A stretch of DNA of 43,795 nt from an uncultured Agathobacter sp. (GTDB taxonomy: Bacteria; Bacillota; Clostridia; Lachnospirales; Lachnospiraceae): contig CAKRKX010000009.1 of assembly GCA_934358675.1 (NCBI GenBank), forward strand, positions 1 through 43,795. The letters are read 5' to 3'. The first letter of the stretch is position 1. Each line of letters begins with the position of its first letter. The notes beneath the pieces are model-generated. The model did not search any database, was not told the DNA's origin, and saw only the letters and a program-made list of their open reading frames with translations. The translations under genes and the position numbers were made by a program. Positions 10,449 through 19,777 of this stretch are shown one piece after another.

Positions 10449-11789
10449 TTAGCACACTGCATCCTCAAGCACGTCAAAGTAAGTCTCAAACGTCTTTCTG
10501 CAGCATCCCGGATCCCTGATCACGATTCCATCCGTCACAAGTCCCGGTATCGCAAAAGCCATCGCCACGCGATGATCCTCAAACGTCTCGATCTCACACG
10601 GTTTCGGCTGTCCCGGATATATGCGGATGGTTCCCTCTTCCGGCTCTTCACACCTGATTCCCATATTGGTCAGATTGGTCATGATCGCATGCAGACGGTC
10701 ACACTCCTGATAACGGATATGTCCGATTCCTTCGATCGTCACCGGACTTTTTGCAAAACAGCTGATTGCCGCCAGTGTCAGTGCCTGATCGGAAAAAGCA
10801 GACAGATCAAACGTTCCGCCACACAGCCCCTCTTCCGGCGGATAGATGGTGATGCCGTCCTCCAGATCGACGCTTCCGCACCCCATCGCTTCGAGCACAT
10901 GCAAAAAGGTGGTGTCGCCCTGCAGGCTCTTCCAATGCACATGACGGACACTGGCAGGCACCGAGAGTACCGGTGCCATCGCATAGAAATAAGCCGCCGC
11001 CGACACATCCGGCTCGATCCGGTAATCACGCGCCGTGTATGACGCATCGCCGGAAATACAAAACGTATCATCCGCCAGACGATTCACTTTTACGCCAAAC
11101 TGTTCCATCATCGCGATCGTCATCTTCACATACGACATACCGTGATGGCCCTTCACATGGATCACAAAATCCTCCGTAAACAATACCGAAGCGATCAGAA
11201 GTGCACTTAAGAACTGGCTGCTCCTGTCCACATCAATCGTAACCTCATATTTACTTACCTTATCATTCCCGATGACAAACGGAAAGTGATACGCTTCCTC
11301 CAAAAACTCGATCGATGCGCCAAGATCTTCCAGTGCTTTCAGAAGCTCCTCCATCGGGCGCTTCTTCATCTGCTCCGAAGAATCCACAAAATATCGTCCC
11401 TTTGACAATCCAAGATATGCCGTAAGAAAACGCGCCGCAGTGCCCGCACTTCCGACATTGATGGAAGCATCTGCATGTGCCTCATCCTGACTGCCCCCAC
11501 GCTTCTTCTCTGCCACCGCTCTCTCATACGCTGGAATCCTACCGCCACATCCTGTGATTGAAACCACGGCATCTGCCTCATCGATCTCCACCTCAAAGCC
11601 AAGATCAATGAGTGCCTGCAGAAAATGCCGGCTGTCATCCGAGAAAAGTACGCCGCGCAGCACACTTTTTCCTTCTGCAAGTGCCGCGATCAACAGTGCG
11701 CGATTCGTAATACTTTTCGAGCCCGGCACCTCCACCTCAATCCTTCTTCCTGCAGCTTTCTTCACTTTATATTTCTCTACGGTTTGCAT
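10449..11789 (-). CDS. aroA: 3-phosphoshikimate 1-carboxyvinyltransferase (EPSP synthase)
   Basis: The 446-residue enzyme joins shikimate-3-phosphate and PEP in the shikimate pathway. The N-terminal PGSKSITNRALL (residues 22-33) and the PEP-site motif NVGSAGTAARFLTA are clear, as are DRSSQFLSALL and DHRVAMAF near the C-terminus. Before the PEP motif there is an extra charged stretch (AVAEKKRGGSQDEAHADAS) longer than in many homologues. The glycine preceding TA is retained, as in glyphosate-sensitive class I enzymes. AAAGGAG lies 8 bases before the start. Upstream lies the foldback element, whose edge seems to sit within the promoter region. aroC is in the same window but 31 kb away and not linked. 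Confidence 0.96.
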   Translation of the reverse strand: MQTVEKYKVKKAAGRRIEVEVPGSKSITNRALLIAALAEGKSVLRGVLFSDDSRHFLQALIDLGFEVEIDEADAVVSITGCGGRIPAYERAVAEKKRGGSQDEAHADASINVGSAGTAARFLTAYLGLSKGRYFVDSSEQMKKRPMEELLKALEDLGASIEFLEEAYHFPFVIGNDKVSKYEVTIDVDRSSQFLSALLIASVLFTEDFVIHVKGHHGMSYVKMTIAMMEQFGVKVNRLADDTFCISGDASYTARDYRIEPDVSAAAYFYAMAPVLSVPASVRHVHWKSLQGDTTFLHVLEAMGCGSVDLEDGITIYPPEEGLCGGTFDLSAFSDQALTLAAISCFAKSPVTIEGIGHIRYQECDRLHAIMTNLTNMGIRCEEPEEGTIRIYPGQPKPCEIETFEDHRVAMAFAIPGLVTDGIVIRDPGCCRKTFETYFDVLEDAVC

Positions 11790-11818
11790 ATTGCAGCTCC
11801 TTTTATTTAAACTTTATA

Positions 11819-12336
11819 GGCGATTGCAAAATCACATGTACAATGAATCTCCCGCTGAACAACTTTCTGACCAAACACTAGGTATCCAGAATTACGAATT
11901 TGCAGAAAATACCACTCGGACTCATTTGATGATTTCTGTCCGCTCAAGCTTAGACAGCGGCCTCGCGGTGTTCGTCTGAGCGCAGAATGCGTCCGAGTGA
12001 TTTTGTGTCTGTCTTAATGGACGTTCGAAGGAAACGTGCCGCCGCATGGACAACTGTTTGAAGCACACTGTATAAACTCCCTTAAAGACATTACAAAGCG
12101 AGTTTTGTCCGCGGCGGCTCATCTCGACTTCATGAGGACGTCCATTTAGGCAGACTAAAAATTGCGAGCGCATTCTGTGTCAGACGGACACCGTGCAGCC
12201 GCAGTCGAAGCGATGCTCGGACACAAAATTTGAGTCCGTGTGGCATTTTCGCAAATTCAGCAATTCTGTCTAAAATCGTGTTTGTTTAGAAAGTTGTCCC
12301 AGCGGGAATCGTTTTCTATATAGTTTTGCAATCGCC
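11819..12336. repeat. 518-bp imperfect foldback element (arms about 230 bp), MITE-like or structured RNA
   Basis: This fills the 597-base gap between aroA and the PilZ gene. The two halves are inverted copies of each other, centred near 12078. Exact matching blocks pair symmetrically: 11819-11831 with 12324-12336 (GGCGATTGCAAAA), 11859-11868 with 12288-12297, 11896-11903 with 12251-12258, 11917-11924 with 12231-12238, 11973-11979 with 12180-12186, 11983-11991 with 12169-12177, 12016-12024 with 12138-12146, and 12038-12045 with 12111-12118. A 50-base loop remains. Between blocks the arms have diverged, many differences keeping wobble pairs. TATA lies just outside both ends (11815-11818 and 12338-12341), compatible with a short target duplication. 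Short open frames inside are not credible genes. Confidence 0.85.
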
Positions 12337-12351
12337 CTATATATTGCGATA

Positions 12352-12378
12352 AAAAAGGGGGCTGCAATATGCAACCCC
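12352..12378 (-). terminator. Terminator after the PilZ gene
   Basis: A 9-bp stem (12358-12366 with 12370-12378) with an ATA loop is followed on the minus strand by CCTTTTTTA. It lies 9 bases past the PilZ gene stop and directly next to the foldback element, so the element is normally separated from PilZ transcription. Confidence 0.88.
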
Positions 12379-12386
12379 TCCGACTT

Positions 12387-12725
12387 TTATAAATCGTTGA
12401 AAATCTGATAGATATCAATCTTGAGTGCATCCGTATCCGTCATTCCGATAAATACCGCACCGTAATGGTATCCGTCTGCAGTCTCCTCGCATCGAACGAT
12501 CTCGATCACGGTGTCGACTACTTCCTTTGTCCAGATCTGAATCTTTGTATTATAATACGTTCCGATGTTCAACTGTGTCTTTGCGTTAAATCCCATACCG
12601 CTTCGTGAAATATCGGTAACATCAACCTGCACATACTTTAAAGTGGTAACGCCGTCTTCATCAAGACGTTCCAGCTGCACATCAACATAAAGTTCCAGTC
12701 TCTTGTGTTTTCTCTTTTCTTCCAT
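12387..12725 (-). CDS. PilZ-domain protein (probable cyclic-di-GMP receptor)
   Basis: This 112-residue single-domain protein has the two PilZ ligand signatures: RxxxR as R5-K-H-K-R9, and D/NxSxxG as D38-x-S40-x-x-G43, followed by a beta-barrel pattern. Both motifs are intact, so binding of cyclic di-GMP is expected. There is no attached output domain, so it would act by binding a partner. It has its own promoter immediately downstream of queA and its own terminator, so it is an independent unit. Two further genes in the window (20366-21646) could belong to related signalling. Confidence 0.88.
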   Translation of the reverse strand: MEEKRKHKRLELYVDVQLERLDEDGVTTLKYVQVDVTDISRSGMGFNAKTQLNIGTYYNTKIQIWTKEVVDTVIEIVRCEETADGYHYGAVFIGMTDTDALKIDIYQIFNDL

Positions 12726-17374: not shown

Positions 17375-17615
17375 GAAAAAAACCCTTACAGTCCGAAAAC
17401 TGTAAGGGACGAATAAATCCGCGTTACCACCCTGATTCCTGTATCTTCTACAGGCTCTCATTTCTGCTTAACGTGCAGCCTCCGTCGCAAACTACTCGAA
17501 TTCATATTTCATCTGCGCAGCTCCTGTGCGAAAATTCGTTGCTTAATCTTACGAAGGAAGCTTACAGCCGATGACTTCCTCTCTCTGTACGTGTTTTTAA
17601 GAACTACTGTACACA
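17375..17615 (-). promoter_or_regulatory. Phenylalanine T-box riboswitch leader of pheS-pheT-queA
   Basis: On the minus strand the canonical T-box core AGGGTGGTAACGCGG (17419-17433) is followed by a factor-independent terminator: stem 17383-17392 with 17399-17408 and a run of seven T. About 65 bases upstream of the core a Stem I specifier region reads GAATTCGAGTAG, placing TTC (17498-17500), a Phe codon, where the anticodon would pair. Uncharged tRNA-Phe should stabilise the antiterminator and allow transcription. The leader, with the promoter, fills most of the 373-base gap between pheS and the SpoIID-like gene. The 5' boundary of Stem I is approximate. Confidence 0.95.
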
Positions 17616-17639
17616 TTCCATGCTTTTAACACGTCTGCT

Positions 17640-19589: not shown

Positions 19590-19771
19590 CATAAACCCAA
19601 AATGCCGGTTCCTGCAATTTAGACTCCTAGCTAATGCTAGGTGGGTGACCGCAGTCTGCCTTCTGCCTTCCACTGATACGATGTGGCCTGACATCCAACA
19701 GTTCATATAGGAATCCCGTTTAAAGTAAATGTAGGTTCTAAATAGCAAGAGTTGTCGTACATCTCAGGCAT
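19590..19771 (-). ncRNA. ssrS: 6S RNA
   Basis: The 453-base gap between two minus-strand genes holds a 6S-like RNA. Its 5' end contains CCTGAGATGT (19759-19768), which pairs over ten positions, allowing G-U, with GCATTTTGGG (19596-19605) near the 3' end to form the closing stem. The same CTGAGATGT and CGGCAT elements stand at the two ends of E. coli 6S RNA. Inside are a large central region, a CCTAGC-ATTA-GCTAGG hairpin (about 19628-19643) and the segment AGTCTAAATTGC after it, which matches the usual 6S layout. The RNA mimics an open promoter and binds RNA polymerase housekeeping holoenzyme. A TTGAAA-17-TATAAT promoter starts transcription at about 19771. Ends are approximate; the 3' end may be processed. 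Confidence 0.88.
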
Positions 19772-19777
19772 AGCTTT

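Follow-up and report, generated by a model that had tools for sequence, protein, structure and literature searches.

The 518-bp stretch at positions 11,819–12,336 of the window, the whole 43,795-nt stretch of DNA that was analysed, is most likely a MITE-like element moved in trans. It is one copy, called W here and given no strand, of a long-hairpin repeat that is real and mobile and constitutes a variant of the MITE kind, with arms that vary in concert in several copies. The identification of the window copy draws on its fold, arm alignment, homologues and empty sites. As an explanation of the whole family, we consider it probable that a non-autonomous, one-hairpin element has been moved by an insertion sequence (IS) transposase in trans, that its arms have been copied onto each other, and that a few of its bulges have been under selection.

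A single long hairpin between aroA and the PilZ gene

The element occupies a 597-bp gap between two genes on the minus strand: the downstream gene aroA (10,449–11,789, 446 aa; ORF list and AroA search) and a PilZ gene (12,387–12,725, 112 aa; ORF list and tblastn), the latter named from the initial annotation, which was read from the sequence only. That annotation had described the gap as one long imperfect inverted repeat paired in register, and the coordinates it gave hold. The plus strand of the 518-base element folds into one imperfect hairpin of −255.8 kcal/mol (z = −18.35), which none of 100 dinucleotide shuffles equalled, and the minus strand taken with its flanks (11,775–12,390) reaches −288.8 (z = −19.15; 0/20 shuffles as good). 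When the arms are aligned, 185 identities over 259 columns give a score of 93.5, compared with a mean of −24.8 and a maximum of −2.5 for 500 mononucleotide-shuffled arm pairs; the arms are diverged and the register is nevertheless kept, as had been claimed. A perfect 13-bp terminal repeat, GGCGATTGCAAAA, lies at 11,819–11,831 and 12,324–12,336, and TATA is present on both sides of the element, both as first reported. The conserved core defined by the multi-copy alignment runs from ATCCAGAAT to ATTCTGTCT (11,884–12,271, plus strand); it is 388 bp long in the window and 383–391 bp in seven other copies when aligned without a nested insert.

The initial annotation had also expected the element to lack protein-coding potential. 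The longest ORF entirely within it has 83 aa, and in at least three of the eight aligned cores (L083, L088 and L089) the matching segment contains at least two stops in each of three frames, so that no conserved reading frame is seen. A coding reading was rejected on this ground, and the element is predicted to be non-coding. The idea that it supplies a promoter was rejected as well, promoter-like sites being at chance level (two found, 1.3 expected). Elsewhere in the window, on the minus strand, a T-box leader (17,402–17,629, 121.2 bits) and a 6S RNA (19,590–19,773, 72.8 bits) were detected.

Orthologous sites lack the element

An AroA query retrieved 80 loci, of which the best are 71–73% identical, so the window's species is absent from this set. 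A PilZ gene upstream of aroA was located by tblastn in 27 of the 80 loci, with a match merely 32–41% identical in three of them. All 27 comparable loci lack the element: their aroA–PilZ gap measures −23 to 228 bp (median 40), against 597 in the window. Measured against these 27 orthologous sites, the window element is an insertion, a non-coding one with empty sites in relatives, as MITEs are. Among the empty sites are L004 of R. faecis, with a gap of 18, and L006, with a gap of 89, and both genomes carry the hairpin elsewhere.

A dispersed family with several subfamilies

Homologues outside the window were expected by the initial annotation if the element was mobile, and multi-copy relatives were found in three other genomes of Lachnospiraceae. 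Among 20 related genomes, two are positive, namely G004 (R. faecis), with three full copies, and G006, with eight places; G203 has ten places of the B type. Each of the three genomes thus holds multiple dispersed copies, another property of MITEs. A genome-search pattern for the right arm, CGGACACRAAAN{25,50}ATTCTGTCT (12,218–12,271, plus strand), matches the window once with 0 expected, i.e. the window holds one copy. It is present in 2/397 genomes of a family sample, 1/392 of an order sample, and 1/5 and 2/62 genomes of two genera, and G004, G006 and G203 are the positives over all samples. When 194 relatives of G004 were searched at the DNA level, G004 and G006 alone came up; three candidates per genome were scored, so that weak relatives can be missed.

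A query made from a weakly matching copy in G508 led to further subfamilies in G508, G533, G534 and G203 and to nothing in G535. Ten of the 25 loci checked from this query have a strong inverted repeat (score at least 214); the other loci, with scores of 31–63, represent single arms, weak matches or the ends of contigs. A second central motif occurs in three of the 397 genomes (G203, G508 and G245), and its match in G245 (L132) has no inverted repeat. The B and D branches are linked by 26-bp matches (E about 0.002) and by the same architecture, and the D and C branches by matches with E values of 5e-8 to 8e-6 at seven listed places. In three G006 copies on three contigs (L084, L092 and L093), the core is interrupted at one shared position by a nested insert of about 80 bp, as expected if one G006 copy gave rise to the others. 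The insert lies in the left arm and is made of two small hairpins.

Several further features of individual loci were noted. In R. faecis, L122 (1446–1718 of G004:C37) is a half-size member with 51-nt arms that are 96% complementary, the outer part of the core being missing from both arms. By eye, L083, L085, L084, L092, L093, L101 and L116 sit just past an intrinsic terminator, which may be found to either side of the hairpin. In two species, one and the same gene has a hairpin upstream, of the R type in L085 and of the A type in L092; the positions differ somewhat, and the site may be a preferred one.

Pattern matches in IMG/VR (L141–L148) were rejected because they have no long inverted repeat, and the match L105 was set aside on inspection of its sequence and fold. 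Searched with the W query (E 1e-5) and with the B query (E 0.01), plasmids gave no match, and a plasmid origin was rejected on that basis. Among phage sequences, the W and B queries found only MT839852 (L081) and MT837534 (L082), and the D and A queries found nothing. These two GenBank records carry family members and are labelled as phage, but they are unverified, unannotated faecal contigs. MT839852 is 97.8% identical to the R. faecis locus L085 over 817 columns; it looks like chromosome, presumably the R. faecis spoVG–pth locus, and a phage origin was rejected. At its end this record mirrors its own flank, which may reflect amplification or an assembly artefact.

Such mirrored ends bring up the reading of the window element as a chance palindromic spacer or an artefact of assembly. 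Palindromes do disturb assembly, and at 17 of 18 end loci read in G534 the contig stops while still in the element, within 350 bases. This reading is, however, refuted by the homologues, which occupy different sites in separate assemblies; the arms of the window copy are diverged rather than perfect, and the shuffled sequences never folded as well, so we give this reading virtually no weight. The long-hairpin repeat was not described in any of the literature matches listed, a set that leaves subscription journals mostly outside and does not establish absence from print.

Ends shared with an IS1182-like insertion sequence

The ends of the window element resemble TAGGCGTTTGCGAAAC, a sequence with which an IS1182-like insertion sequence carried by Lachnospiraceae plasmids also terminates. 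An end-motif scan of the window allowing three mismatches gave five matches, with 2.38 expected, and both element ends are among them with two mismatches each: the left terminal repeat AGGCGATTGCAAAAT (11,818–11,832, plus strand), compared with AGGCGWTTGCGAAAC, and the right terminal repeat GGGCGATTGCAAAAC (12,323–12,337, minus strand). The window ends therefore differ from the consensus at 2 of 15 bases, and the element shares its terminal inverted repeats with an autonomous element, as a MITE does. With at most one mismatch, TAGGCGTTTGCGAAA was found in five of seven genomes, 23 times in G534, whereas its reversed control occurred 0–2 times per genome and strand. Three R. faecis ends and one G535 end are followed not by a hairpin arm but by another sequence, for which four plasmid records gave matches, from Butyrivibrio proteoclasticus, Roseburia sp. 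831b and Lachnospira (Eubacterium) eligens. Complete IS copies are present on the B. proteoclasticus and Roseburia plasmids, and the eligens records contain one end only.

The transposase of this IS has 485–490 aa and passed the DUF772 model (E 3.4e-14 and 6.7e-12; 53.1 and 45.7 bits, cutoff 23.1). Against the IS1182 model NF033551 it scored 70.1 and 67.1 bits, below the cutoff of 270, and for this reason we call the IS IS1182-like and not a member of IS1182. On pCY360, the plasmid of B. proteoclasticus, positions 1222–4767 of L215 hold two tandem DUF772 IS copies with the same 490-aa transposase, neither of which is listed in the PLSDB gene table.

Two of five IS copies lie between flush direct repeats, 11 bp long in one case and 10 bp in the other; of the remaining three, one (the tandem neighbour on pCY360) has a non-flush repeat and two have 4 bp only. 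At the hairpins, no flush target-site duplication of at least 8 bp was found in the 10 copies testable (11 tried), the longest direct repeat being 7 bp and not flush. One account of MITEs states that their flanking direct repeats wane with age (PMC10969869). The initial proposal of a non-autonomous foldback or MITE element is supported by the empty sites, by homologues that are dispersed and patchily distributed, and by ends in common with an IS; target-site duplications were not seen at the hairpins.

We infer that the hairpins have a partner acting in trans, and the IS1182-like element may supply the transposase. C-type ends read TTAGGGACGG and not TAGGCG, so that no single partner can serve all hairpins; ends also drift between copies. 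Fragments of the transposase occur in 2/6 genomes with hairpins and 3/19 without, a lack of correlation on which we rejected the idea that transposase presence tracks the hairpins. Since repeats collapse in draft genomes, this comparison is a weak one, yet it leaves the pairing of transposase and hairpins unsupported.

Arms that change together

In the core, the same arm is more alike between copies than the two arms of one copy are to each other: identities are 0.91 (G203) and 0.95 (R. faecis) for the former comparison and 0.71 and 0.78 for the latter. In the segment of about 45 bases directly outside the core, the relation is reversed. Here the two arms are 0.87 identical within a copy in five G203 copies (range 0.74–0.94) and 0.97 in two R. 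faecis copies, whereas the same outer arm compared between copies is 0.62 and 0.73 identical, respectively, with shuffled sequence at 0.48. No such reversal was seen in the scored segment of four G006 copies, at 0.71 within and 0.69 between (core 0.70 and 0.90); their far ends do look similar within each copy and dissimilar from one copy to the next. The window copy itself, with arm identities of 0.69 (outer) and 0.73 (core), has no concerted outer arms in the scored segment.

These figures bear on a simpler account, an ordinary decaying MITE family in which arms and mismatches are inherited and the outer arms evolve fast, with neither arm copying nor selection. A patchy multi-copy distribution and the G006 segment are what such decay would produce, but outer arms far more alike within than between copies, as in G203 and R. 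faecis, are not the outcome of simply inheriting two diverged arms, and we regard decay by itself as unlikely.

Covariation points in the same direction as concerted arms. In an eight-copy alignment, RNAalifold pairs show both-sided change at 52 of 111 pairs, amounting to 132 cells against 50.6 in shuffles and 9–23 with the partner slid; pairing cells make up 92.4% versus 79.1%, figures favoured by the derivation of the structure from the same alignment. Real RNAs favour G-U over A-C mismatches. In the arm alignments of 16 copies, mismatches comprise 95 G.T and 106 A.C; this absence of strand bias suggests that the arms were copied at the DNA level. Among RNAalifold pairs, G-U is in excess on either strand (57:32 and 58:9; 75:29 and 88:23), an excess that we attribute to the energy model. 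In stems, template switching is reported to yield multi-base compensatory changes (PMC8794818), and it would be the simplest cause of the mirrored arm changes. In our model, the arms are occasionally copied onto each other, either by polymerase template switching or by repair or conversion in an extruded hairpin, and such copying would make them change together and stay paired.

At the window locus, copying may have reached beyond the element. The inverted repeat continues outward, with 11,781–11,807 (plus strand), which spans the ribosome-binding site and the start codon of aroA, pairing with 12,351–12,377 (minus strand), the intrinsic terminator after the PilZ gene. This mirror has a local score of 36; 3000 dinucleotide shuffles gave 28 at most, and 5800 comparable window pairs gave no more than 25. 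Forms similar to the right-flank pilZ terminator are present in L010 and L007, and at the left flank, the aroA start, the sequence of relatives differs. At this one locus, the direction of copying was likely from the pilZ terminator to the aroA start region. The copying event in the window would have spread outward and mirrored the terminator onto the start region of aroA; the copy sits between the two, and the mirror image seems to have spread into the start of a gene.

Some differences between the arms have been kept. In all 16 copies, the two bases before CAGAAT differ between arms (both in 13 copies, one in 3), and TGYCT[T/A]A carries T in the left arm and A in the right one; an ATGAT-like bulge is confined to the left arm in 15/16 copies. 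The base four places before CAGAAT is identical in both arms in 12/16 copies (C in 4, T in 8), so neighbours change together while the mismatch stays. The three motifs were picked after the alignments had been seen, and the 16 copies come from four genomes. Shared ancestry within subfamilies could explain the kept mismatches in a decaying family, and unpaired columns overall are not specially conserved, as decay would have it; a general excess of conservation at unpaired positions was rejected, the opposite being found (0.69 for unpaired and 0.79 for paired core columns). The same mismatches in 15–16 of 16 copies from four genomes nevertheless argue against decay alone. Returning to the combined model of transposition and arm copying, we judge with moderate strength that a few arm-specific bulges have been kept by selection on the folded element, which would act, likeliest on DNA, in transposition or maintenance.

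Relation to the TwoAYGGAY RNA

The initial annotation had offered a gene for a very long hairpin RNA as its second possibility. For the window copy this is not supported: no Rfam match reached its curated threshold, the two weak matches (up to E 5) lying far below cutoffs, and the strand-specific G-U tolerance of a structured non-coding RNA was not seen. An RNA function of this copy stays conceivable, since a distant subfamily contains a known RNA motif. A match to PrrB_RsmZ, of the same clan as TwoAYGGAY, covers 12,351–12,482, outside the element, at 15.5 bits (cutoff 44).

Relatives of the C type present a different picture. TwoAYGGAY (RF01731), catalogued as a structure in its own right, is found in full in four G203 elements (L163, L169, L172 and L174) at 80.9–97.6 bits (cutoff 43), in each case at the middle of an inverted repeat of 579–676 bp. 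The C-type L167 has a partial match at a contig end (32.1 bits, below the cutoff), and 13 of the 18 loci searched, including C-type L173, have none. TwoAYGGAY was listed as a probable RNA of the human gut, gamma-Proteobacteria and Clostridiales (PMC2864571), and a later paper proposes that it binds CsrA and calls its external stem not well conserved (PMC4333381). Through this link, a mobile element would harbour an RNA family for which CsrA binding has been proposed.

The alternative of a gene family whose products are very long structured hairpin RNAs, with a host function and with pairing held by RNA selection, would account for the strong covariation, the conserved length of the core and the TwoAYGGAY matches. 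We nonetheless find it improbable given the patchy presence and empty sites, the promoter-like sites at chance, the window copy's lack of an Rfam match above threshold and the mismatches without strand bias, although frequent arm copying could hide the strand bias of an RNA. Covariation is the usual proof of RNA structure, and the hairpin family combines strong covariation with no strand preference and one branch in Rfam. It is a natural multi-copy system for telling arm copying from RNA selection. More tentatively, the mobile-element reading could be extended to a superfamily of 500–680 bp Lachnospiraceae mobile hairpins that spread in folded form, with an outer stem rewritten in each copy by arm-to-arm copying and arm-specific bulges kept through recognition of the folded form. 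TwoAYGGAY might then be the tip of one branch, and some catalogued structured RNAs might be pieces of mobile hairpins whose covariation comes in part from arm copying in DNA.

Comparison with known systems

Like prokaryotic MITEs, the hairpin elements are non-coding, have terminal inverted repeats, are dispersed between genes and have ends in common with an IS. MITEs are described as typically shorter than 500 bp with terminal inverted repeats of about 4–30 bp (PMC10969869), whereas the hairpin family places its whole 500–680 bp in one hairpin with arms of at least 200 bp, its outer arms vary in concert, and flush direct repeats were not found. The IS1182-like DUF772 IS of pCY360 and the Roseburia sp. 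831b plasmid has the same terminal sequence, TAGGCG(T/C)TTGCRAAAC. It differs in being autonomous, 1.75–1.77 kb long and without a hairpin, in its second end, TAGGTAATTGCGAAAC, and in the 10–11 bp flush direct repeats at two of its five copies. The 168-nt TwoAYGGAY model fits the apex of the four C-type relatives in full; unlike the RNA as modelled, the motif in these relatives lies within a 579–676 bp inverted repeat, and the window copy has no match. REP/BIME and REPIN repeats, although much shorter, far more numerous and dependent on another type of transposase, are like the hairpin family in being dispersed intergenic palindromes moved in trans.
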